Source: Phycisphaerae bacterium
GTDB lineage: Bacteria; Planctomycetota; Phycisphaerae; Sedimentisphaerales; Anaerobacaceae
Length of the DNA: 64,000 bases
NCBI GenBank assembly: GCA_012744475.1
Contig: JAAYBV010000031.1
Span: 62,001 to 126,000 of the forward strand
Direction of reading: 5' to 3'
Numbering within the stretch: the stretch's first letter is position 1; the number at the start of each line of letters is the position of its first letter. The position numbers and the translations under genes are program-made. Below the pieces are notes generated by a model. The model made no database searches and was not told the origin of the DNA. It saw nothing but the letters and a program-made list of their open reading frames with translations. Shown here piece by piece: positions 11,999-34,022 of this stretch.

Positions 11999-12027
11999 TT
12001 GCGTTGGCGCGCCTCCGCTGGTATATT
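11999..12027 (+). promoter_or_regulatory. Candidate sigma-70 promoter of pyrR-pyrB
   Basis: TTGCGT at 11999-12004, a 17-bp spacer, then TATATT at 12022-12027. The predicted start near 12034 leaves a leader of only about 30 nt before the pyrR start, too short for a PyrR-type anti-antiterminator/terminator leader. Confidence 0.5.
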
Positions 12028-12063
12028 GCCTCCAACAACCGCGTGGAACCGGATTCAGAGTGG

Positions 12064-12600
12064 ATGGCCGCTATGAAGGTGATCCTGGACGCCGAGCAGA
12101 TCGACAAGACCCTCCGCCGCCTGGCGGAGGAGATCGCCGCCCAGACTTCTCGCGCTGACGATCCGGTGATTATCGGAATTCGCAGCCGGGGCGAGATACT
12201 TGCCGAGCGCCTGGCGGAGCATCTGTCCCGGCGGCTGAACCACCCGGTCCCGTGCGGCACCCTCGATATCACGCTCTACCGTGACGATCTCAACGCGCCC
12301 CAGAGCGCCGACCAGCCCCTGGTGCGAACGACAGAAATCGGCTTTGCCCTCGACGACAAGACCGTCATCCTGGTCGATGATGTGCTCTACACCGGCCGTT
12401 CGGTCCGGGCGGCATTATCGGCCCTGATCGATCTGGGCCGGCCCAAGGCCATCCGCCTGGCGGTCCTCGTCGAACGGGAGGGAAGGGAGTTCCCCATCCA
12501 GGCCGATTATACCGGCTATAAGGCCGAGGTCCGGCCCGGGCAGTTCGTCCAGGTCAACCTCATCGAGTCGGACGGAAGAGACGAGGTTGTAGTCGAGTAG
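12064..12600 (+). CDS. pyrR: Bifunctional pyr regulatory protein / uracil phosphoribosyltransferase
   Basis: A 178-residue phosphoribosyltransferase. The PRPP-binding loop VILVDDVLYTGRSVRAA is intact, and PVIIGIRSRGEILAERLAEH and GTLDITLYRDDL are typical of PyrR. PyrR proteins bind pyr mRNA leaders in response to UMP in some bacteria and also make UMP from uracil. ATG 12064 is chosen; ATG 12073 (KVILDAEQID follows) is an equal alternative, and neither has a strong ribosome-binding site. It is the first gene of a two-gene unit with pyrB (five bases between them). A good promoter ends 36 bases upstream, with no visible attenuator hairpin, so regulation may differ from the Bacillus model. Confidence 0.93.
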   Translation: MAAMKVILDAEQIDKTLRRLAEEIAAQTSRADDPVIIGIRSRGEILAERLAEHLSRRLNHPVPCGTLDITLYRDDLNAPQSADQPLVRTTEIGFALDDKTVILVDDVLYTGRSVRAALSALIDLGRPKAIRLAVLVEREGREFPIQADYTGYKAEVRPGQFVQVNLIESDGRDEVVVE

Positions 12601-12605
12601 AGACC

Positions 12606-13637
12606 ATGAGCCGCATCCTCAACATCGTGGAGCGACACACCCACCACAGCTCCAGGCGACAGCACAGTATGACTATGGCGATCATGCGAAAAGGCAAGCA
12701 GTTCAGATGGCAGCGCAAGCACCTGATCGGTCTGCGGGACCTCAGCGCCGAGGAGATCCACTACATCCTCGACACCGCCCAGGGCTTCGAACAGATCAGC
12801 ACGCGCTCGGTGAAGAAGGCTCCTCCCCTGCGAGGCAAGGTGGTCGTCAATCTGTTCTTCGAGGACAGCACGCGCACGCGGACCAGCTTCGCTCTGGCCG
12901 CCAGCCGGCTCAGCGCCGACGTCGTGGAGTTCACGATGAAGAACAGCTCCGTCAGCAAGGGGGAGACGCTGCTGGACACCGCGCGGAACCTTGAATCGAT
13001 GGGCGTCGACATCGTCGTGATCCGTCACAACGCTGCCGGGGCGCCGAAGCTGCTCAGCCGGAACATCAACGCCTGTGTCGTCAACGCCGGCGACGGCTAC
13101 TGCGAGCACCCCACCCAGGCCCTGCTCGACGTCTACACCATCCGCCAGATGAAAGGCTCGCTCGAAGGGCTCAAGATCGCCATCGTGGGCGACATCTCCC
13201 ATTCGCGCGTCGCCCGCAGCGACATGTGGGCGATGACGAAGCTGGGCGCCGAGGTCACGCTGGTCGGGCCGCCCACGCTCATGCCCGCGGACGTCGGCCG
13301 GCTGCCGGTGAACACCAGCTACTCGCTCGACGAGGTGATCGAGAAGGTCGACGTGATCAACATGCTGCGCATCCAGTTCGAGCGGCTGGGCGGCAACCCC
13401 TTCCCCTCGATCCGCGAATACTCGCGGTACTTCGGCCTGACCGTCGAGCGGATGCAACGAGCCAAGCCGGACATCGTGGTCATGCATCCCGGCCCGATCA
13501 ACCGCGGCGTCGAAATGGAGAGCGAGGTCGCCGACGGCACGAACAGCGTCATCCTCCGCCAGGTCACCAACGGCCTGGCCGTCCGCATGGCCGTCCTGTT
13601 CCTCGTCAACCAAGCCGCCGCTGAAACCCCCGCGTGA
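12606..13637 (+). CDS. pyrB: Aspartate carbamoyltransferase, catalytic chain
   Basis: Joins carbamoyl phosphate and aspartate in the second step of pyrimidine synthesis. Seen: the carbamoyl-phosphate loop STRTRTSF near residue 88, HNAAGAPKLL, HPTQALLDVYTI, a hinge and domain II with IAIVGDISHSRVARSD, and MHPGPINRGVE near 293. Catalytic residues are all present and the 343-residue length is about 30 above average. The first 26 residues are a His/Arg-rich extension, so ATG 12684 (MRKGKQFRWQRKHL) may be the true start. It lies five bases after pyrR and is surely co-transcribed. No pyrI regulatory chain is in the window. Confidence 0.95.
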   Translation: MSRILNIVERHTHHSSRRQHSMTMAIMRKGKQFRWQRKHLIGLRDLSAEEIHYILDTAQGFEQISTRSVKKAPPLRGKVVVNLFFEDSTRTRTSFALAASRLSADVVEFTMKNSSVSKGETLLDTARNLESMGVDIVVIRHNAAGAPKLLSRNINACVVNAGDGYCEHPTQALLDVYTIRQMKGSLEGLKIAIVGDISHSRVARSDMWAMTKLGAEVTLVGPPTLMPADVGRLPVNTSYSLDEVIEKVDVINMLRIQFERLGGNPFPSIREYSRYFGLTVERMQRAKPDIVVMHPGPINRGVEMESEVADGTNSVILRQVTNGLAVRMAVLFLVNQAAAETPA

Positions 13638-15994: not shown

Positions 15995-17275
15995 ATGCAA
16001 CTTGTCTCCAGAAGATCGCGACTGCGCGGCAGCGTTCTGATCCCCGCGTCGAAATCTCATACGATCCGTGCCGTAGCCATCGCCGCGCTGGCCGAGGGCC
16101 AGAGCCTCATCCGCAACCCCCTGTTCTCGGGCGACAGCGAGGCGGCGGTGCGGTGCTACCGCGCGCTGGGCGCCGAGATCGACACGAGCCAGGAGAACGT
16201 CTGGAAGGTCACGGGCGTCGGCGGTCGCATCGTCCCGCCGCAGGAAGCCATCGACGTGCTCAACAGCGGCACGACCCTGCGAATCGCGATGGGTTCGGCT
16301 GCCTTGGCCGAGCCCGGCCGAAGCACCACCTTCACCGGCGACGACCAGATCCAGACCCGCCCGGTCGGGCCACTGATGGACGCCTTGCAGGACCTCGGAG
16401 CCAAGTGCGTCAGTCTCAAGGGCAACGGCAAGGCCCCCGTCCAGGTCCGGGGCGGCCTGAAAGGCGGCCATACCTCCATCGAGGCCAAGACCAGCCAGTA
16501 CCTCAGCAGTCTGCTGATGTGCACCCCTCTGGCGCCGAAAGACAGCGAGATCGACGTGACCCTGCTCAACGAGCCGGGCTATGCACGGATGACTTTGGAC
16601 TGGCTCGACAAACAAGGCATCGTCTATGAGAACGACCGCATGCGCCGCTTCCACATCAAAGGCGGCCAGCGCTACCAGGCGTACCACCTGCCGGTGCCCG
16701 CCGATTTCTCCAGTGCCACGTTCTTCCTCTGCGCCGGTGCCCTGTTCGGCGACCGGGTCACACTCCGAGGTCTGGATTTTGCCGACAGCCAACCCGACAA
16801 GGCGGTGGTGGACTACCTGCGGGCCATGGGCGCCGACATCGCCGTCGACTCCGACGGCATCACCGTCAGGGCCGGCTCGCTCAAGGGTGTCGAAATCGAC
16901 ATGAACGCAACGCCCGACGCCCTGCCCGCGGTGGCCGTGACCGCCGCCTACGCCGAGGGGACCACTCGGCTGGTCAACGTCCCCCAGGCGCGGGTGAAGG
17001 AAACCGATCGCATCGCGTGCATGGCCCAGGAGCTGGCCAAGATGGGCGCCAGGGTCGAGGAATTGCCTGACGGCCTGGTCGTGCACCACAGCAAACTGAA
17101 AGCTGCGCGCCTGGACGGGCGGGGCGACCACCGCATCGTGATGGCGCTTTCGCTGGCCGCGATGGGGCTCAACGAGCCCTGCACGATCGATACGGCCGAG
17201 GCCATCGCGGTGACCTTCCCGGAGTTCGTGAACCTGATGCGGTCCATCGGGGCCGACATGAAGCTCCTCGCCTGA
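15995..17275 (+). CDS. aroA: 3-phosphoshikimate 1-carboxyvinyltransferase (EPSP synthase)
   Basis: A 426-residue shikimate-pathway enzyme that transfers the enolpyruvyl group of PEP to shikimate-3-phosphate. Seen: PASKSHTIRAVAIAALAEG at the start, the PEP-side motif LNSGTTLRIAMG, the phosphoshikimate segment TSQYLSSLLM, RVKETDRIACMAQELAKMG and GDHRIVMALSLAAMG. Length and motifs are standard and no active-site residue is missing. ATG 15995 has an excellent GAGAGG ribosome-binding site; an upstream in-frame ATG at 15851 precedes the promoter and was rejected. The aroC-like gene follows about 220 bp downstream on the same strand. Confidence 0.96.
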   Translation: MQLVSRRSRLRGSVLIPASKSHTIRAVAIAALAEGQSLIRNPLFSGDSEAAVRCYRALGAEIDTSQENVWKVTGVGGRIVPPQEAIDVLNSGTTLRIAMGSAALAEPGRSTTFTGDDQIQTRPVGPLMDALQDLGAKCVSLKGNGKAPVQVRGGLKGGHTSIEAKTSQYLSSLLMCTPLAPKDSEIDVTLLNEPGYARMTLDWLDKQGIVYENDRMRRFHIKGGQRYQAYHLPVPADFSSATFFLCAGALFGDRVTLRGLDFADSQPDKAVVDYLRAMGADIAVDSDGITVRAGSLKGVEIDMNATPDALPAVAVTAAYAEGTTRLVNVPQARVKETDRIACMAQELAKMGARVEELPDGLVVHHSKLKAARLDGRGDHRIVMALSLAAMGLNEPCTIDTAEAIAVTFPEFVNLMRSIGADMKLLA

Positions 17276-17498: not shown

Positions 17499-18827
17499 AT
17501 GCTTGGATGTCACCTTGGACGCAACTTTCAACTGACTGTCGCAGGCGGCTCATACCAGGAAGGGCTCGCCAGCACTATCCAGGGTGTCCCGCCGGGACTG
17601 CTCTTGAGCGAGCAGGAAATCTACGGCGATCTGCTGCTGAGGAAACCCGGCGCCGATGAGCTGAGCAGCCCGCGGAAGGAGCCGGACCTGCCGGTCATCT
17701 ACGCAGGCGTCAACGCCGCCGACACGATCGAGAACGCCGGCAACAAGAACCACACCAACGGCACCCCTCTGGTGATCCTGATCCCGAATCTGGACCGGCA
17801 CTTCATCCACATCAAGCAATACCAGGACACGAACCGCACGCCGCGACCGGGGCACGCCTCCTACGCGAGCTTTGTGAAGTACGGCCCGGACGACGACGCA
17901 ATCGGCGCGGGCATCTTCAGCGGCCGGTACACCTCGATGATCGTCGCGGCCGGCTCCGTCGCCAAGACCGTGCTGCGAAAGTGCGGGATCGAAGTCTTCG
18001 CCTACATCAAGGAGATCGCGGGCGTCCGATGCCCCGAAGTGCCTTACGAGCAGGCGCTGCAATCCTGCGACCGCTACAAAGCGATGCGGCACGCCCTGGA
18101 CCCGTTCTACCAGGAGGTGTACGTCAAAGGCCGCATCAACATGGATATGCGCTTCCTCGAAAAAGCGGCGGTCCTGGCCCAGATCGAGCAGGAGATCGAC
18201 GCCATCCGCGACAGAGCCCCCAAGATGAGCCACCAGGAGGTCCGCGACAGATACGGCGTCCACGAGGTCGTCAACTGCCCCGACATCGACGCCGGACAGG
18301 CCATGCTCGATGCCTGCCACAGGATCTCGGCCGGGGGTGACTCGGCCGGCGGGTTGGTCGAAGTCGTCGTCCTCGGCGCCCCCATCGGGCTGGGTGAGCC
18401 TGTCTTCAGCAAGCTGGACGCCGAACTGGGACGCATGCTGGGCATCGGCGCGGTCAAGGGCGTCGAGATCGGGGCCGGCTTCGCGGTCAAGGACATGACC
18501 GGCTATCAGAACAACGACCAGATGCGGTCCGTCGACGGCAAGGTGGTCTTCGAGTCCAACAACGCCGGCGGCATCACCGGCGGCCTTACCACGGGCCAGC
18601 CCATCGTCGCGCGTCTGGCGGTCAAGCCGACGCCCACGATCGACAAGGCCCAGAAGACAATCGACAAGTACACACAGGAGAACACGCAACTGGCGGCCAT
18701 CACGCGACGGGACGCGACGATCGTCGGCCGGATCTGGCCGGTCGCGGAAAGCTACACCGCCCTGGTCATCCTGGACCACCTGATCATGCACTACGGCTAT
18801 CAGGCCCTCAAGGCCAGGGTCAAATAG
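17499..18827 (+). CDS. Divergent chorismate-synthase homologue lacking both catalytic histidines
   Basis: A 442-residue AroC-fold protein. Family marks are clear: RPGHASYASFVKYG, RKCGIEVFAYIKEI, VPPGLLLSEQEI, GLGEPVFSKLDAELGRML, AVKGVEIGAGF, ESNNAGGITGGLTTGQPIVA and KPTPTI. Chorismate synthase uses FMN to turn EPSP into chorismate. Two signatures are changed: G-E-S-H-G near the start reads GGSYQ (His to Tyr), and G-R-H-D-P near the end reads TRRDA (His to Arg); ARET reads GRYT. These histidines are catalytic in known enzymes. About 80 extra residues lie in the middle (about 190-270). ATG 17499 has AAAGGGG seven bases upstream. It follows aroA, which suggests a shikimate-pathway role, but its activity is in doubt. 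Confidence 0.85.
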   Translation: MLGCHLGRNFQLTVAGGSYQEGLASTIQGVPPGLLLSEQEIYGDLLLRKPGADELSSPRKEPDLPVIYAGVNAADTIENAGNKNHTNGTPLVILIPNLDRHFIHIKQYQDTNRTPRPGHASYASFVKYGPDDDAIGAGIFSGRYTSMIVAAGSVAKTVLRKCGIEVFAYIKEIAGVRCPEVPYEQALQSCDRYKAMRHALDPFYQEVYVKGRINMDMRFLEKAAVLAQIEQEIDAIRDRAPKMSHQEVRDRYGVHEVVNCPDIDAGQAMLDACHRISAGGDSAGGLVEVVVLGAPIGLGEPVFSKLDAELGRMLGIGAVKGVEIGAGFAVKDMTGYQNNDQMRSVDGKVVFESNNAGGITGGLTTGQPIVARLAVKPTPTIDKAQKTIDKYTQENTQLAAITRRDATIVGRIWPVAESYTALVILDHLIMHYGYQALKARVK

Positions 18828-19016: not shown

Positions 19017-22000
19017 CTACCCTCCGGCAACCGCACCCGCACCGCCATCGGCGGCATTCTGCTGCTCTTCCAGGGGCGTCTGATCCGGTCTGGCGATCGC
19101 CGGGACCCAGTCCGACCACGCGGTCATATTGCCCGAGGCGTCACGAGCCCGCACGCGGAAGTGCAGTCCCTGATTAGCCCTGCCGATGAGAACCCGGTAG
19201 ATCGGCTCGGTCTGCCAGCCACTGTTGAACTCGGAACGCTCTTGGCACTCGAAGTAGTACAGGACCACGCCGCTGTCGTCGGTGGCAGTCACCGCCATCA
19301 TTTCCACATAGTTGTCGAACGGCGTAGCTCTGTTGGAACCGTCGAAGTCATACTCGCGCGGCAGACCGTTCGGGTCGAACGCCATCGGGTCTGGCGTCGG
19401 CGCCGTCTGGTCGGCCGGGATCGCGGTGGTGAAGCAGCTCCAGGCCGAGAACGGGGTTTCGTTCTGGTTGGCCGACATGTCCCTGGCCCTGACGCGGTAG
19501 CAGTAGGTCATGCCCGGAGCCAGGTTGACATCGGTGTAGGTGTTCGTGTTGATCCAGCCGCTGTCGTTGGCGCCCGGCGTGTTCGTGTCGAAGAAGTACT
19601 GCACGCCGTTGTCGTCGAACGCCTCGGTCGCGACCATCGTGATCGTCTGCGACGTCACCGCCGCGTTCGGCAGAATGTACGGCTCGGGATACGGAGCCAG
19701 CGTATCGACGTTGCCGGCGTAACGGACCCGCGAGAACCCGGTCTCGTTGCCCAGCCCGTCGCGCGCCTTGACGCGGTAGCCGTACTGCCGGTTGCTCGAC
19801 AGACCCGTGTCGGTGTAGACCCGGCTGCTCTGCCATCCGCTGCTGTGGCCGCCGCCGCTGACGTTCTCGAAGTAATACTCGACCGGCCAGCCCCACGCGT
19901 CCACCGCCTCTTTGGCGACCATCCGCGCCGAACCACCGTCCAGACTCGGCAGGGATTCCCACTCGGCCGGATCCGGCTCGGGCGGCGTCGTATCCTGGAC
20001 CAGCCAGCAGTCCGCCAGCACCGCCAGGTCGCGGGCCGTCACGGTCGAATCGAACGTGAAGTCCGCCTGATCGCACCACCCGTTGGCCTCGGAGCAATTC
20101 TCATCGAGCCAGCTCGTCGCGAAGGCGGCGAAGTCCTTGAAGTCGATGATCCCGTCGAAGACCAGATCGCAGAACTTGCACGGTTCCATGAACGGATAGT
20201 GGTAACCCATGTCCACGCGGCCCGTATCCGGGACGTGGTCGGTGCGGGTCGTGGAGCGTGACATGCCCACGTTGCCGGCGAAGTCGCTGCCAGCGTCGAC
20301 GGCCGGACTCTGCCGCGACTGACCCGCGCCGCGACTGCTCAGGTAAAACTCGCCGAGCATGCCACTGACGAAGATCGGGTCGGCGTGGATGATGCCCTCG
20401 CCATAGGTCAGCGTGCAACCCGTGTCCACCCAGATATCGTTGGGTCCGACGCGGATGTCACTGTACGAGACGTTCAGCACGCCGCACAGCGGATCGAGAT
20501 CGAACCCGCTGCCGACCGCCAGTTCGCCGCCCAGGCGGGCCGAGTTGCCCCAGAGAATCGAATCGACCACCGTCGCTTCGCTGAGATACCCGCAGAAGAT
20601 CGCGCCGCCCAACCCGGTGTTGTTCGGGTCTGCGGGCGTGCCCGGGGCGCCGTTGGTCACGAATGTGCAGTTGCGAATCGTCGGCTCGGCGTACCAGTTC
20701 GTCGAGATGCCGCCGCCGTCGCGGAAGGCGCGGTTGTTGCGGATCAGGCAGTTGACGATCTGCGTGAAGTTCTGGCCGCGCAGATAGACCGCACCGCCGG
20801 AGCCGTCGGACAGGTTGCCCGCGAGGTTGCAGTCCTCGATCAGGGCGCTGGCCGAAGAGATCAGCAGACCGCCGCCGATCGGCACAATCGTATCGTCGTT
20901 CGGATCGTCCACATCGGTGACCGCCCGGTTGTTCCAGACGAAGCTGCCGGCCACACCGATCGAGCCGCCCATGCCAGCCAGAGCACCGCCGCGGAGGGCC
21001 GTGTTGGCGGTCACGTTGCAGTCGATGACGCTGACGCCGGCGTTGATGACGTAGATGCCGCCGCCGGTGTCGGCTTCGTTGTCGACGAAGTTGCAGTCGA
21101 CAAAGGTCAGGTTGGCCGTGCCTTCGGCCGCGACACCGCCGCCAAAGCCGATGTACGGATCGAGACGGAAGTTCGGGTCCTGTCCGGCCGTCGTCGGGGA
21201 CGCGATGTTGTCCTCGAACGTGCAGTCGGTGAAGGTCACAATCGTTTCGGCCGCACAGTAGACACCGCCGCCGTACGACGGAATCTGGAACGGAATCAGC
21301 GGCTCGATGTTCCGACCGGCGTCGCCGGCGACACCGCCCTGGCCGCTCATGCCGCCGTAGGAGCGGTTGCCCCGAATGACGCACGAGACGAACTCGGCGC
21401 TGCTGTACTGGTCGATGTAGACGCCGCCGCCGTAACCGGAGTACCACCGGTAGTCACCGAAGTACGATCCGCCGCTGCCGATGATCCCGGTGGCCGGCGA
21501 GTACGGCTGCGTGCCATACGCGGACTCGATATCGGCCGCGTAGTCCCACAGCCAGGTCCGCCACAGTTCCTGCGTGGCCGTCTCCGCGCCGAGACCGGCG
21601 GGATTGATGTCGACCATCACCGGAGGCGTGTAGTTGCCGCCGTAGTTCGGCAGACCGCCGCCGTCGGAGAAGCTGCCGCCGTTGCCGCCGTTACCGCCCT
21701 GGACCGCGTTGTTCTCGATCAGGCAGTTGACAAACTTGGGACTCGTGTTGGTCGCGCAGTAGATGGCGCCACCGCGAGCCCAGCCGCCCCAGCCGCCGCG
21801 GCCGGCGTTAGTCGTCTCGTCGGCGTCCACGCCCGCGCCACCGTCACCGGCGACGACGATGTTGTTGCGGAAGACGCAGTTCTTGACCACCGGCGCCGCG
21901 CCCGGCAGCATGATCATGGCGGCGCCTTGGATCGGCGCGCCGTCCTCGCCGTTGGGATGTCCGGTCTCGCGATCGCCGTCGCCGCCGTCGGCCGCATTGC

Positions 22001-25000
22001 CGCCGCAGTTCTGAATCGTGAAGCCGTTCAAGACGGTGTTGCGATTGGCGCCCGGCCCGAACAGCACGCCGAGGTTGTTCCACTGGTTGTTGGGAACCGC
22101 ACTGAGACCGTCGATGATCGTCGCGGCCACAACCGCCGGATCGTCCGGATTTCTGGACGTGACCGTCACGGGCTTGTCGATGATCAGGGCGATGGCCTCA
22201 TAGCCACTGTAGTAGGTGCCCGGATCGACCATGATCGTGTCGCCTTCTCCGGCGGCCGTCACGGCGTCCTGGATTCGCGGATAGTCGCCCGGCACAGTGA
22301 TCACGCGCGACCGGCGCTTCTCGAATGTCACCGTCACGTGCCGATCCTGCGTCAGGGTCACGGTGTTGGTCAACGTGGTCAGCGTGTCGTCGTCGGTGCC
22401 GGTCCACTGGGCCACCCTCCACCCTTCCTCGGGCGTCGCGACGAGCCGCACGACGTTGTCGGCCGCCCCGGCATACGCCACAGAGAACGCCGGACTGACC
22501 GAGCCGTGAATAAGACCGTCCACATCGCTGGCCAGCGCTTCGGCCGTCAGGGTGAACAGGGTCACGCCTTCGGCATAGTGGTAGCCCATGTCGACCGTGT
22601 TGGCGTCGGCCACGCCGTCGGTTCGGGTCGTGCGATCCGCCAGATCGATGCCCCTGGCTTCGGCCGGACCGCTTCCGACGTCAACCGCCGGACTCTGCCG
22701 ACCCTGGCCCGACGCCGTCTGGCTCAGGTAGTAGCCCGCGATGAACAGCGGGTCCTCCCCGATGTTGCCGCTGGCCTCGTCCCAGACGCCCGTCTCAGCG
22801 TCCCACCCGGGCAGCCTCGACAGGTCCGAAACATAGATCGACGGCGCCACCTGATTGAGCACCTGTACAGCCTCCAGCAGGGTCGCCCCTAAAGTCATGG
22901 CACTGCTCGCGTGGAGCATGGCGCCGCCCGTGCCGCCGGCCAAAGCGCCGAAGTACAGCGGCGTCACCGGGTCGTTCCCGATTTGGACGGAGAAGATGCG
23001 CTTGCTCGGCGTCTGCGAGGCCGCTCCCACCACGTCGCCGAGCGTGTAGCCGGCGACCGGTTCGGGATCGTGCGGAGCCGCGTCCCCGATCAGCAGGATG
23101 ACGCGGTCGACCGGGCCGCTGCGCCAGCCGCCCAGGGCGGTCCCGTCGATCGTGCTCATCAGCGCCGAGTAGACCGACTCTGTCACAGTGTCGCCGCCGG
23201 CGCCCTCAGGCGTGCCGAGGGTGTTGATGCCGTTGTACACGCGAGTCGCGTCCGTCGTGAACGGCACGACGGCGCGGAACGTGTAGTCCGTCGTCGCACC
23301 GACGCCCGTCTCGTTGAAATCTTTGAAGTCCACCACCGCCATGCGGTAGTCCTGCACATCCGTCGCGATCTGGGCGAGCACCTGGGCCGCCGCCGCTTTC
23401 ACCGCGGCGATGCTGGCGGTCATGCTGTCCGTCGTGTCGAAGACAAAGACCAGGTCCAGGGCCGAGCTTTCGCTGGTTCCCGGCGCGACGTTGGACTGGA
23501 TGTTGCTGTTCTGGATGTGCAGCGTGGACGGCCGAGGCCCATACTCGAAGCCGTTGGTCACGGCAATCTGCGAGCCATAGTAGATGCTCGAGTTGCCCCA
23601 GACGATCGAATCGACCAGCACGGCGTTCGCGTCGTAGCCGACGAACAGACCGCCGCCGTAGGACGCTCCGAAGGCGCCGCTGACGAAGTTGTCGGCGATG
23701 GTGCAGTTGGACAGGAACGGCTCGTTGTACCAGTTGACCGAGACACCGCCGCCGTCGCGACCGGCGCTGTTGCCGGTGATCAGGCAGTTGTGCAGCCGCG
23801 GCGCGGTTTCCAGACTCTGGTCGGAACCGCCGAAGTACAGACCACCACCGGAGGTCGAGGACCGGTTGCCCTCGAAGATGCTGTCGAAAATTTCCAGCGG
23901 GGAGTCAAGGGCACAGACTCCGCCGCCCCAGCTTGTCACGCCGGCGAACGGCTGGTTCGGATCACCCGTCGAGTTGGGGTCGATCGTGGACTGGAGGGCC
24001 CGGTTGGCCGTCAACCTGGCTTCGCTCACCGTCCCGGTCGAATCGACTGCATACAGGCCGCCGCCGTGGTACGCCACGTTGTCGCTGATGTTGCAGTCGA
24101 TCACCTTGATGGACGAGTTGGACGACCAGATGGCGCCTCCGACCGCCGAAGAGCTGTCGGTGATCGTGCAGCGGATGAAGGTCGCGGCACAGTCATTCTC
24201 GACGGCGATGGCGCCGCCGTAGCTGACGTAGATATCGTCCGGCTCGGTCACAGTGTTCGTGTCGCCGGTGTTGTTGGTGAAGACGCAGCCGACGAATTCC
24301 GGAGAGCTGGCATTGCCGACGTACACCGCGCCGCCGAAGTTCTCGATATCGATGTTCCTGTCCGGCAGAGGCCATGGGGTACCACCCACGCCGCTGACGC
24401 CGCCAAAGGCATGGTTGTCGGTGAAGTTGCAGTCGACGAACCGAGGCGAGCTGTAGTACTCGATGTAGACCGCGCCGCCATGGCCGCTGTACTTCCAGTA
24501 ATCGTCATAGTAGGGGCGCGGGTCCCGCATGATCGTCTCGGACGAATAGCCGTAGATGTTGCCGTCCTTGTCGAAGAAGCCCCATTCCCAGCCATCCCAC
24601 CAACTCAGTATGCTCTGTTCGATCGCTTCGCCCAGCATCAGGTTGCCACCACGCCCGCTGATGGCGTTCTGGACGCTGTTCCCGCCATTGCCACCGTTGC
24701 CGCCGATGGCCCGGCAATTCTCGAAGAGGCAGTTCTCAAAGAGCGGATCGCTGTTGAAGCCGACGTACACGGCGCCGCCATAGGCCCAACCCGCCCAGCC
24801 GCCGTCGTAACCATTGGGGTGCACGTCCTGGATGCCGCCCGATCCGGTTCCGCCGTTGCCGCCGGTGATGCTGCAATCCACGAATCGGCAGTTGCGAATG
24901 GTCGGAGAGGCTTCGTAGATCGTCATTGTGCCGCCGATCAGACCGGAACCGTATGCCCCGTCATGCGGCGCCCCTGCGATTGCGTCGCCATCAAGCCCGT

Positions 25001-28000
25001 TGGCGCCGACCCAGTTCACGTCGCCGATGGTGATGCCTTCGATGATGGTGTCGGGCCCGACGTCGTATATCTCGAACTGATACCGCCGCAGCATCGTGCT
25101 GGCCACCACCTCCGGATCGTCGGGGTTGGCGCCCGTCAGCGTGATGCTCTTGCCACTGATTCGAATGATGCCCCATGGGTAGACGCTCGTGGCCACCGGC
25201 GCGTACACTCCACTCGGCAGGAGCACGACGTCCCCGTCTTCGGCGGCGTCGATCGCATGCTGAATCGTGGTGTACTCCGGCGCACTGCCGACGACGATGG
25301 TCCTGGGCTGCTCGAATTCGACGGTAACGTGCCGGTCCGGCCCAATGATCACGGTGTTGGCCGCGTCCTTCGAAGCGTCGTCGGTCGTCCCGGCCCACTG
25401 CGCGATGCGCCAGCCCGATTCTGGCCTGCCCATGATCGGCACGGCGGTTCCGGCGTAGTACTCGCCGCTGGTCGGCTCGATCGTGCCGTGACCGCCGATC
25501 ACCTCGGCCGTCAGTTTGTACTTGGGCATGTCCGTGTGATCCGGGAAGTGGAAACCAACGTCCACCACACCAACGTCCCCTTCGCCGTCACTGCGTGTCG
25601 TCAGCTCGGAAAGCCCGAGGGCCTCGGCAAGGCCATTGCCGGTGTCGACGGCGGGGCTGTTGGCATCCTGACCGGCCACCGTCTGACTCAGGTAGTAGGC
25701 TCCGAGCGGACCATCGGTGAACAGCGGATCGCCCTCGGTATTTGTCACGTCGAGCTCCGGCCCGGCTACCGTGGTCGTTACCTTCGAGGCACTGTCGTAG
25801 AGACCGAAGTCTCCGTCGGCGTTCTGGTGGAACAGGCTGTGGGTCACGATCGAGTTGGCGAAATCGATCTCCGCAATGGCACGGTTGTTGTTGTTCTCGA
25901 AAATCGAATTGCCGACCGTCACATCCGAATCCCAGTCACAGTAGATCGCGCCGCCGAGCCGCTCGGCCTGGTTCTGGGCAAACGTACTGTTGGTGATCGT
26001 GGGTGTCGCAAACAACCCGCTCGAGACGGCGCCGCCGTGGCGATTGGCGCTGTTGCCCATGAACAGACAGTTCTTGACGACGTGATCGACGTAGCCGCCG
26101 TAGAAGCTCAGGGCGCCGCCGGTTCCGTTGACTCCATCGGCCCGGTTGTAGCCGAACATGCAGTTCTCGATGGTCGCGTTCGTGGCGGCGCAGACCATAC
26201 CGCCACCGACGTCCACGCCGACACCAGGCTCGTCCTTCTCGAAGTGACCTCGGTTCAGGTAATAGACATTGTACGAAATGAGATCGTATGGATCAGTCAA
26301 CAAGAGACCGCTGATCAACTCGTTGACCTGCGTGTCGGCCATCGGCGGTACGCCGCTGCCGCCCAGGGCAACGTTGCCGCCGACGCCACCACCGGTCAGC
26401 TTCACCGTGCCGGCGGTCAGGAACAGGCCGCCGCCGCTCTTGGCCCGGTTGTTCAGGAAGTAGCAATCGTTGATGCGGGCGTCGAAATCCTCGAAGTGCA
26501 GAGCCCCGCCCTGGCTGTAGAAGCCGCCGACCGCTTCGTTGCCGCCGAAGGAGCAGCGATCGAGGCCCAACTGCAGGACATACGGGCTCTCCGGATCGCC
26601 CGTGTTGAGATAAGCATCGATGGCGCCGCCGCTCTCACCGGCCTTGTTGCCCGAGAACGAACAGCCGCTGAATTCCGCATGGCTGAGCAAACGCACGGCG
26701 CCGCCGCTGCCGGTAGCTTCATTGCTGTAGAACTGGCAATCGCGCAACATCACGTTCGTGCAGAGCGGTCCGACAAAGAGCGCGCCACCCGTGTAGTCCG
26801 GCGTCTCGATACCACTGATGCTGATGTGGTCGTCTACAATGACGTACAAGCCGAAGAAGCGTGGATCGGCGTTTTCTCCATCCGCCCGGTTCTGGCGGAA
26901 CACGCACTGATTGGCGTCCACAACACCATACCCGGCGTGGTAGACGGCGCTGCTGGCGTTGCCCGAGAACTCGCAGCGCTCGACGCTGATAGTGTCCTCG
27001 TAATCGGCGAAGATGGCGCCGCCAGGCATGTAAATGCGCAGCTCATCCTGTTGCGCGCCGGCGGCCAGGAGCGTGGTCGTCAGGTATCCGTTGTAGGCCA
27101 GGTTATTGGTGAATGTGCAATTCACGAATTTCGGAGTAGCGCCGTTCTGATAGACCGCGCCACCCACCACCGTCCCACCGGGCATCACGTCACCGACGTC
27201 GCCGGGGCCCGCGGGGTTCGGATACGGGTCGCTCAGATCGCTGCCGGGACCGTCCATGCCCGGAATGCCGGGCACGCCCGTCACAGCGTGGTTGTTGGCG
27301 AACACGCAGTCATTGAACACCGCGTCGCTGCCGTTTTCACAGTAAACGGCGCCGCCGTGGCCGTCGCCAAGGGCGTTGCCGGCATCGCCACCCCAGCTCT
27401 CCCAACTACTGCCGTCGTTCGGATTGCTGCCGTTGCCGCCGTCGCCACCCATACCGCCTCGCGCGGCGCAGTTGCGAATGGTGCAGTTGATGAAGGTCGG
27501 TCTGCTGCCGCTCAGGCAGGCGACGGCGCCACCGTAGCTGTCGCCGGAGCCGGTGCCACCATGACCGCCCCAGTAGCCCTTCACGTCCGAACCCTGCGGA
27601 ATCGCGTAGCCGTCCAGGCCGTTGCCGCCCTGGGCCGCGACGACCATGCAGTCCTCGATCACGCAATTCAAGAACGTCGGAGAACTGCCGTTCGTGCAGA
27701 GGATCGCCCCGCCGTAGCCGGTGCCGCTGGCACTGGTGCCCGAAGGCATTTCGATGGGCGGCTCCTGCTCATCCGGGTTGTACTCCAGGATCGGACGACC
27801 GTTCGGATTCACACCGCCGGTGACACCGACCGAGCCAATCCAGTAGGCGTTGCGGATCGTGATGCCGGCGATGACGCAATCGGCTGTCTCACCGCTGTGG
27901 AAGTAGAACGCCCGTTTGCGTCTGAAACGTGCACCCTCGCAATCGATGATGGTGCTGGCCACCGAGTTCGGATCGTTCGGATCGACCGACATCAGGCGGA

Positions 28001-31000
28001 TATTCTTGTTTTGCAGATCGATGCCCTGGGGGCTGCTGATGTAGTGAGTGCCCTCGCTCAGGATGATGTTGGTGTCGCCCGGGCTGGCCGCCAGGATCGC
28101 TTCTTCGATCGTGCGGAACTCCGAGGGCACCAGGATGTTGCGGGTGACGTTCTTCTCGAACTCGACGATGACGTACTGGTCGCCGGTATCCATCGTCACG
28201 GTGTTGGTGTTGCGGTTCCAGGACGGGTCGTTGTCGGTGCCGATCCACTGACGGACGCGATAGCCTTCCTGCGGATGGGCGGTGAGGGTGACCCGTTCGA
28301 ACTCGTGGTAGTAGCCGCCCGTCGGGGTGACGGTCCCGTGACCGCCGACGACCGTGACCTCCAGTTTGTAGCGTCCCTGTCCGGCGTAGTGGAAGCCCAT
28401 GTCCACCGTGCCGGCATCGGGCGCGCCATCGGTGCGCGTGGTCGCGCCGGCCAGGCCGAGTTGGCTTGCCAGGGCGCTGCCGGCATCGACGGCGGGACTG
28501 TCCTGACCCTGTCCGGCCGCGATCTGGCTGAGGAAGTACGATTCGACGAACAGCGGATCGGATTCGATGTTGCCGTCGAGCCAATTGAGGGTCCGGCCCG
28601 ACTCGATGTGCAGGCCGAGACGTCCGCCTTGAATGTCACTGTACGAGACCGTCAGCGTCGCGGGCCGCTGGATGTAGACCGGATCGCTGTCGCTGCCGAT
28701 CGAAATCTGCGAGCCCAGAACCGCCACATTGTTCCACAGGATGCTGTTGATCAGCTTGGTGTTGCTGCTGTGCGAAGCGACCAGGCCACCGCCCTTGCCT
28801 CGGGTGCTGAAGAAGTTGGGATCGTAGGCGAAGTTCTCGACGATGGTGCAGTTCTCGATCGTCGGGGCCGCGAACCAGTGCGAGGCGATGCCGCCGCCGT
28901 CGACGGTCGCGGTGTTGGCCTTGACCAGGCAGTTCTTCAAAGTCGGCGTGTAGGGATCGCCGCCGAAGTAGACGCCGCCGCCGGAGCCGAGCGTCGTGTT
29001 CTCGCTGATGAAGCAGTTCTCAATCAGCGCATCGGACGACCAGCAGACCAGACCGCCGCCGGCCCCCAGACCGGTGCTTCGCGACTCGGGCACGTCCGGA
29101 GGCGTGAACGGGTTGTTCGGATCGAACAGCGAGTTCGGATCGTTCGGATCGGGCCAGACGTCCTGAGGAGGCCACGTGCTCTGATCGTTCGGGTCCATCG
29201 GAGGCGCCGGGACGAAGACGATGTACTGCGGCCCGGTCGCCTGGTTGCCACGAATGCTGCAATTCTCGATCGCCGGCGCGCCGCGGCTCCAGTACAGACC
29301 GCCGCCTTCGACTGCGGTGTTGCCGCGAATCACGCAGTTGGAAACCTGCACGTCGGCGCCCTGGCCGTACCAGTACAAACCGCCGCCGTAGCCGGCCTGG
29401 TTGTCGGTGAACTGGCTGTTGCGCAGGTTCAGCGTGCTGCCGTTGTAGTAGTCGGAGGCGTCCTCGTCCCAGATGCCGCCGCCGAACAGACCGCCGCCAT
29501 ACCCCTCGTCGTCCTCGGTGCGGTTGTCGCTGAACGTACAATCGTTGACGTCGAGCTTGCACTCGTAGCTGAGGAACAGACCGCCTCCGTTGACAGCCGC
29601 CTCGTTGTCGAAATACCGACAGCCATTGAGCGTGATCGCGCCGCCGACCTCGAAGGCCTGACCGCCGCCATAGAGGGCGGAGGTGTTGCCTTCGATCGTG
29701 CAGCGAGTCAGTTCGGCCGTGCAGTCGTTGGCGTAGTACTCGCCGCCGCCGCTATCGGCCTCGATGAGGTTGCCGCTGATCGTGGTATCGGTCAGCCTCG
29801 CGACGCAGTTCGCCAGGTAGACGTTGGCGCCGCCGTAGTTGGTGGTGAAGCTGCGAAGGACGATACCGGCGCTGCCGGCACCACCGGCCGCCCCATCGGT
29901 CCCGCCCGCGCCACCGGCGCCGCCTTCGCCCGCGGGATCGCCATCACCGCCGCTGCCACCAGCGCCACCGGCGCCGCCCGGGCTGCCGCCGGCGCCCCCG
30001 GCGCCACCGGCCCCACCGGCGTACGAAAGCGTCGGCACCGTCCACAGGGCCGAGCAGCCACTGATCGCGGTGTCGTAGATCTGAATGTCGCACTCCTCGG
30101 CGAAGAAGATCGCTCCGGCCCAGGACCGCAGACCGTTGATGCCCATCGGGCCACCGGCGCCACCAGCGCCACCATTGGCGCCGACGCCGTCGGTCCCGGC
30201 CTGGCCGTCCTGACCGTCGTTTTCACCGCTGCCTGCGGTGCCGCCCTCGGCCGCAACGCCGCCGCTGCCGCCAGCACCGCCCGCACCACCGGGGCCGCCG
30301 GCATTGCCGAGGCCCTGGAGCGTTTCACAATCGATGATCGTGCAGTACCGAATCGTCGGCCGGCAGTTGGCGCCGAAGTACATAGCGCCGCCCAGGGCTT
30401 CGCCACCGTCGCCGCCCTTGCCGCCTGCGCCGCCGGCCCCACCGGCGCCGCCATTGCCGCCATTGCCGCCGTTGCCGCCATTGCCGCCGTTGCCGTCGGT
30501 GCCGTCATTGATGCCGGGACCGCCGTTCTGGCCGTCCTGGCCCTGTTGGCCGTCGCCACCGTCGCCGCCGGCCGCTCCATCCTGGCCGGTACCGCCGAAG
30601 CCGCCGGTGCCGCCGAGGGCCTTGCAGTTGCGAATCGTCACGTGGAGAATCGTCGGCGCACAGTTCGGGTCGAAGTAGAACGCGCCGCCGTACCCGTTGC
30701 CGCCGCGACCGCCTTCGAGGCCGGGCGCACCATCGGCGCCGGCCGCGCCGTCCGCGCCGCTGGCGCCATCGGCGCCGTCAGTGCCGTCGATGCCGTTGAC
30801 CGGTGCTTCCGGGTCTCGCGGATCGGGATTGGGTTCCGCGGGGTCTTCCAGCGCCTCGGCCGCATCAGCCGGATCCGCCGGCGCCGCAGGCGGAGCCGGG
30901 GCCGCCGGCGGAGCGCTGGCGTCTTCGCCGTTGCGCCCCTGCGCGACACAGTTCTCGATAATCAGGTTGGACAGAGTCGGACTGCTGCCGTTGAAGCAGG

Positions 31001-33914: not shown

Positions 33915-34022
33915 ATGTCTACTTCCGTTTTTGCTATGCCTGAATCCGTAGAACTGCATCGTATGGGGAATTGCTCCCGCGTCATAGACCCCACGTGCCA
34001 TCGGTTTTCCGATCACAAGCTG

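Follow-up and report, generated by a model that had tools for sequence, protein, structure and literature searches.

A clade of chorismate synthase homologues with tyrosine at the His17 position in Planctomycetota and other bacteria

The gene located downstream of aroA in the analyzed window (the whole 64,000-nt stretch of a contig assigned to a Phycisphaerae bacterium) encodes a chorismate synthase homologue, called here the variant, in which one of the two mechanistic histidines of the family is replaced by tyrosine. Judged from sequence and genome content, the variant very probably represents a distinct subfamily of working chorismate synthases with a rebuilt phosphate-side active site and not a decayed paralogue. 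Chorismate is the precursor of aromatic amino acids, and chorismate synthase (AroC), a flavoenzyme found in textbooks, has an unusual non-redox mechanism and is a drug target. The canonical enzyme forms tetramers, and its two invariant histidines were reportedly the subject of work by Kitzing et al. in 2004. The features discussed below are collected in Table 1.

Table 1. Positions of the variant gene, the upstream aroA gene and selected segments of the variant in the window.
Feature	Position	Strand	Remarks
aroA (EPSP synthase, makes the presumed substrate)	15998..17275	+	directly upstream of the variant, same strand
aroC variant (divergent chorismate synthase)	17499..18827	+	442 aa plus stop; PF01264 and TIGR00033 profile matches
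GGSYQ, residues 16-20	17544..17558	+	Tyr19 in place of the family His17; Ser18 unchanged
10-aa insertion, residues 72-81	17712..17741	+	from alignment with E. coli AroC
HFIHI, residues 101-105	17799..17813	+	two histidines specific to the clade (His101, His104) and a 3-aa insertion; possible substitute acid
RPGH, residues 116-119	17844..17855	+	family His106 kept
FSGRYT, residues 140-145	17916..17933	+	SSARET-type loop with Tyr144 for Glu; Ser and Arg unchanged
Main mid-protein insertion, residues 185-227 and 233-256	18051..18266	+	67 extra residues relative to E. coli; predicted helical
TRRD, residues 402-405	18702..18713	+	catalytic Asp367 kept; GRHD histidine replaced by Arg404

Sequence and predicted structure of the variant

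In profile searches, the variant protein exceeded the cut-offs of PF01264 (310.9 bits, cut-off 27) and TIGR00033 (310.9 bits, cut-off 212.2), so automatic annotation would name the gene aroC. The score with the NCBI equivalog model NF003793 fell just short of the cut-off (314.3 vs. 321) and that with NF009113 (150.6) did not reach the cut-off of 799. The comparisons were based on 32 variants and 18 canonical rows, with alignment A1 holding 27 of the 32 variants and alignment A2 holding 47 rows, i.e., the window protein and 46 of the 80 named-genome loci, which were the best 80 of 215 confirmed stretches. Since M1, G3 and C4 were invariant across A2, translation very likely starts at the ATG at 17499. 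An AlphaFold model obtained with the window protein and 46 loci had a mean pLDDT of 75.8 and a pTM of 0.83, with residues 106-137 below a pLDDT of 50. The comparison of this model (mf88cce07a359) with solved structures revealed the chorismate synthase fold: solved chorismate synthases were the top matches (20 entries, Z 26.5-31.4, 247-348 residues) and the next unrelated chain had a Z of 3.9.

The alignment with E. coli AroC bore out the initial annotation of this open reading frame as a chorismate synthase homologue with GGSYQ in place of GESHG and TRRDA (residues 402-406) in place of GRHDP. The accompanying claim that both catalytic histidines were replaced did not hold, because the mechanistic pair consists of His17, described as the acid that protonates the phosphate on departure, and His106, located near the flavin (excerpts of PMC7144000 and PMC2386126), and does not include the GRHDP histidine. 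Only His17 (Neurospora numbering used in the literature; H19 in E. coli AroC) was lost, the position being occupied by Tyr in all 32 variants and by His in all 18 canonical rows. The motifs aligned unambiguously in these rows, which rules out an alignment shift that would restore His17. All of the 20 additional canonical loci from the phylum also had His at this position (17 by pattern, 3 by alignment) and no GGSHG-type intermediate was seen in the variant and canonical samples examined. His106 (H119 of the variant), the residue that protonates the flavin, and Asp367 (D405) were kept in all 32 variants and in all 47 rows of A2. Asp367, which acts through water and is described as the base for flavin N5 (excerpt of PMC3509576), is the catalytic residue of the GRHDP motif, the histidine of which varies among canonical AroC proteins (ERSD/ERAD in L167, L169, L170 and L193; GRFD in L191 and L192). 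The ERSD-type proteins (L167, L169, L170 and L193) resemble the variant in having Asp without the GRHD histidine, but their GESHG motif, hence the His17 position, is intact.

The variant shares with canonical AroC (PF01264, TIGR00033; E. coli K-12) the fold, His106, Asp367, the RPGH, GGITGG-type and KPT motifs and the presumed reaction. In addition to Tyr for His17, it differs by Gly for the Glu two residues before, Gln for the following Gly, RYT for RET, TRRD for GRHD and the extra H101 and H104, which were invariant in 47 of 47 rows. The family residues Ser18, Ser141 and Arg143 were also kept, and Glu130 was replaced by Tyr144. The canonical L050 protein has the FSGR form of the loop in common with the variant, but retains GESHG and GRHD. 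The surplus of residues, initially put at about 80, was confirmed, as the variant (442 aa) is 81 residues longer than E. coli AroC (361 aa). Seven insertions were identified relative to the latter, at residues 72-81 (10 aa), 101-103 (3 aa), 135 (1 aa), 185-227 (43 aa), 233-256 (24 aa), 347-350 (4 aa) and 391 (1 aa), which sum to 86 aa and, minus a few gaps, give the 81 extra residues. L194 (G399), a canonical AroC with GESHG and GRHDP, had different insertions of its own, so inserts arise elsewhere in the chorismate synthase family too.

Both SYQ and RPGH were found in all 80 loci from named genomes, with GGSYQ in 79 and GASYQ in L074. The motifs HFxHI, RPGHAS, FSGRY and TRRD likewise did not vary among the 47 rows of A2. 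The presence of TRRD was judged from the 32-variant and 47-row alignments; the RRD pattern in the 80 loci often matched other sites of the protein. The same motif set was present in the deep members L155-L159 (62-67% identity). L074 and L138 were found in one metagenome-assembled genome (JACZKQ01, MAG49) carrying two different variant genes, one of them with GASYQ, which may represent a real duplication or a mixed bin.

It might be argued that the variant works as an ordinary chorismate synthase and that its changed His17 position says little about the mechanism, this residue never having been essential. The replacement of the other, flavin-side histidine by alanine in the Neurospora enzyme is described as costing about 20-fold, compared with 300-600-fold for the loss of Asp367 (excerpt of PMC3509576), and arginines were considered possible proton donors in a 2025 study (excerpt of PMC12697075). 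This explanation is judged unlikely: His17 was unchanged in every canonical sequence examined, and the variant clade has fixed Tyr along with further residues of its own, a pattern indicating a coupled change rather than neutrality.

Occurrence of the variant and canonical forms

A search of the window's own genome confirmed the suggestion that a canonical aroC might lie elsewhere. The second AroC was an AroK-AroC fusion (L001, contig C116) with a chorismate synthase domain which, unlike the variant, has canonical GESHG, RPGH and GRHDP motifs and is preceded by an N-terminal shikimate kinase domain. Among 61 relatives, including this genome, the variant was found in 47, as the only form in 37 and with a canonical homologue in 10, the latter being only a 94-aa fragment in G003. 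Eight relatives had only the canonical form and six, all less than 90% complete, had no AroC. When the analysis was confined to the 32 near-complete relatives (completeness of 90% or more, contamination of 5% or less), 17 had the variant only, 7 had both forms, 8 had the canonical form only and none was without AroC.

A chorismate-binding enzyme was present in all 61 relatives. EPSP synthase scored over the cut-off in 53 of them, including all 17 near-complete genomes with the variant only, and aroB (PF01761) was detected in 45, including 14 of these 17. Five near-complete genomes (G008, G015, G016, G034 and G042) showed no PF01761 (AroB) match, yet EPSP synthase and chorismate users were present. 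The aroB-less genomes perhaps use another route to 3-dehydroquinate.

The variant was found in 15 of the 393 genomes that made up the phylum sample. The PF01264 recheck of 13 of these carriers (G000 and G044 had already been scanned among the relatives) revealed the variant only in 12 and both forms in 1. A further 17 genomes, reached through named loci, were picked for their diverse labels (Omnitrophota, Lentisphaerae, Fibrobacter, Chitinispirillaceae, Planctomycetota and others). Fifteen of them had the variant only, G453 also had a canonical copy and G452 a second, 164-aa fragment; EPSP synthase over the cut-off and chorismate-binding enzymes were present in all 17. The sets overlap, with G035 and G046 belonging to both the relatives and the phylum sample and at least four of the picked genomes met in other sets, as recognized by coordinates (G444=G041, G456=G020, G457=G382 and G458=G027). 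Within the single genus g42, G046 and G382 had the variant only and G050 and G054 the canonical form only.

The canonical AroC of the relatives was mostly fused behind a shikimate kinase domain, as judged by Pfam for L001 and L071, by blastp for L070, L079 and L082 and by length for L035-L038 and L040-L049. Another domain arrangement was encoded by L039:1228-2529 (-), where AroC was accompanied by a C-terminal chorismate mutase type II domain (PF01817, 30.5 bits, cut-off 27), an apparent AroC-chorismate mutase fusion.

Between the changed mechanism and the new role initially proposed for the gene, the frequent lack of any other AroC homologue in near-complete carriers that have EPSP synthase and chorismate-using enzymes favors the former. 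The synthesis of chorismate by the variant is the simplest account, since the variant is often the sole candidate between EPSP synthase and the chorismate users and since both forms interchange among close relatives.

Gene neighborhood, selection and phylogeny

The position of the variant right after aroA, pointed out in the initial annotation, was verified in the window and examined in the 72 of the 80 named-genome loci that had at least 1300 nt upstream and were thus usable. The end of aroA was located no more than 300 nt upstream of the variant in 37 loci and farther away, within 7 kb, in 15; aroA was absent upstream in 20. At L108, aroA adjoined the variant on the opposite strand. No tight shikimate operon was found at L097, where aroA was about 5.4 kb upstream and the neighbors were PEPCK, SAICAR synthetase, GreA, a transporter, AIR carboxylase and an aminotransferase. 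The canonical AroC gene directly preceded the variant in 5 of the 80 loci, with the order aroA, AroK-AroC, variant in the four that were not cut by a contig end. A putative AroA-variant fusion suggested by a 1224-aa open frame (G330, L155) was rejected: by eye, its N-terminal stretch did not resemble AroA and probably reflects the chance absence of stop codons in GC-rich DNA.

Upstream of aroA in the window, two open reading frames at 12004-13637 (+) were named by eye as pyrR and pyrB, and the same pair was noticed near the variant at several other loci, often on the opposite strand. The region 19017-34016 (-) is occupied by one open reading frame of 4999 codons with glycine-rich repeated segments, which, judged by eye from the translation, seemingly encodes a giant secreted surface protein.

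In the window's genus, dN/dS values amounted to 0.08-0.16 for five variant pairs vs. 0.085-0.106 for four canonical pairs. By this measure, purifying selection acts on the two forms to a similar degree within the genus, so neither is decaying where both occur. The low dN/dS, together with the invariant motifs, rules out a pseudogene.

These data also bear on the possibility that the variant catalyzes a related but different reaction, e.g., with another EPSP-like substrate in a side pathway, and that the genomes with the variant only make chorismate by an unknown route. Such a function would suit the joint change of several active-site motifs, the maintenance of both forms in the window's genome and in 6 other near-complete relatives, each form being under purifying selection in the genus, and the loci without aroA upstream. 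It is nevertheless quite improbable, since the variant was the sole AroC homologue in more than half of the near-complete relatives (17 of 32), all with EPSP synthase and chorismate users, the two forms alternated within one genus and adjacency to aroA was common. In addition, we know of no unrelated chorismate synthase. A role as a catalytically dead paralogue, serving the tetrameric canonical enzyme in a structural or regulatory capacity, would agree with the loss of the leaving-group acid and, as a mixed oligomer, with the canonical gene directly before the variant at the five loci mentioned, but is highly improbable, as most carriers have no canonical partner and a dead subunit would not need the invariant His106 and catalytic Asp.

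A tree was built from 35 variants and 29 canonical sequences (E. coli included) chosen out of more available. The 35 variants formed one clade (support 100/100), the stem of which had a length of about 2 changes per site. L050 (G039, canonical) was the nearest outside row, with a sister support of 90/87. This placement is unsure and the join may be false because both branches are long. Three clusters with other labels were nested inside the planctomycete variants: the Lentisphaerae-labelled L125, L130 and L131 (support 100/100), the Fibrobacter/Chitinispirillaceae-labelled L106, L134 and L144 (100/97) and the Omnitrophota/Ratteibacteria-labelled L097 and L115 (100/95). Such a topology fits gene transfer. 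Some taxon labels, such as Candidatus Kuenenia for L105 and Actinomycetes for L108, may be wrong, because all 80 named carrier records are, by title, metagenome-assembled.

Proposed function and significance

Acting as a chorismate synthase, the variant would follow the classical enzyme in binding EPSP together with reduced FMN and in forming chorismate by phosphate elimination. With the flavin-side residues kept and the phosphate side rebuilt, the flavin chemistry would probably be unchanged and the acid for the departing phosphate different. This acid could be Tyr19 itself, which is placed in the vacated His17 position, or else the relocated His101/His104 or Arg404, which are the other clade-specific candidate donors. 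Genome content implies that the variant must convert EPSP to chorismate in carriers without another AroC homologue. In the window's genome, it would be a second, selectively maintained isozyme beside the canonical AroK-AroC fusion.

Several observations count against a chorismate synthase function of the variant. The canonical AroC in the window's genome is intact, so the variant is not needed for chorismate there, and His17 is described as invariant in addition to its role as the phosphate acid. Further points are the 20 of 72 loci without upstream aroA, the narrowly missed NF003793 cut-off and the lack of aroB in 3 of the 17 near-complete genomes with the variant only.

A farther-reaching interpretation, slightly favored by us, is that the clade represents a second natural catalytic solution. 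It would perform the anti-1,4-elimination without His17, using Tyr19 or the His101/His104 pair in the new loop as the acid, would be found in Planctomycetota, with Lentisphaerae, Fibrobacterota and Omnitrophota having acquired it by gene transfer, and would have displaced the classical enzyme several times.

The chorismate synthase family is already known and the genomes are public; the clade lacking His17 is set outside the canonical class, the variant not being placed there because the His17 feature was looked for and Tyr was found instead. No description of a functional chorismate synthase clade without His17 was found in the open-licence literature searched. A plain aroC annotation conceals the rebuilt active site. 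A natural, apparently sole-source enzyme with Tyr at the His17 position would offer a ready-made test of the phosphate-acid assignment and could show whether an acid is needed at all and, if so, which one. As far as the sequences indicate, the bacteria of a widespread group appear to obtain chorismate through a rebuilt synthase in which the supposedly invariant histidine has been replaced by tyrosine.
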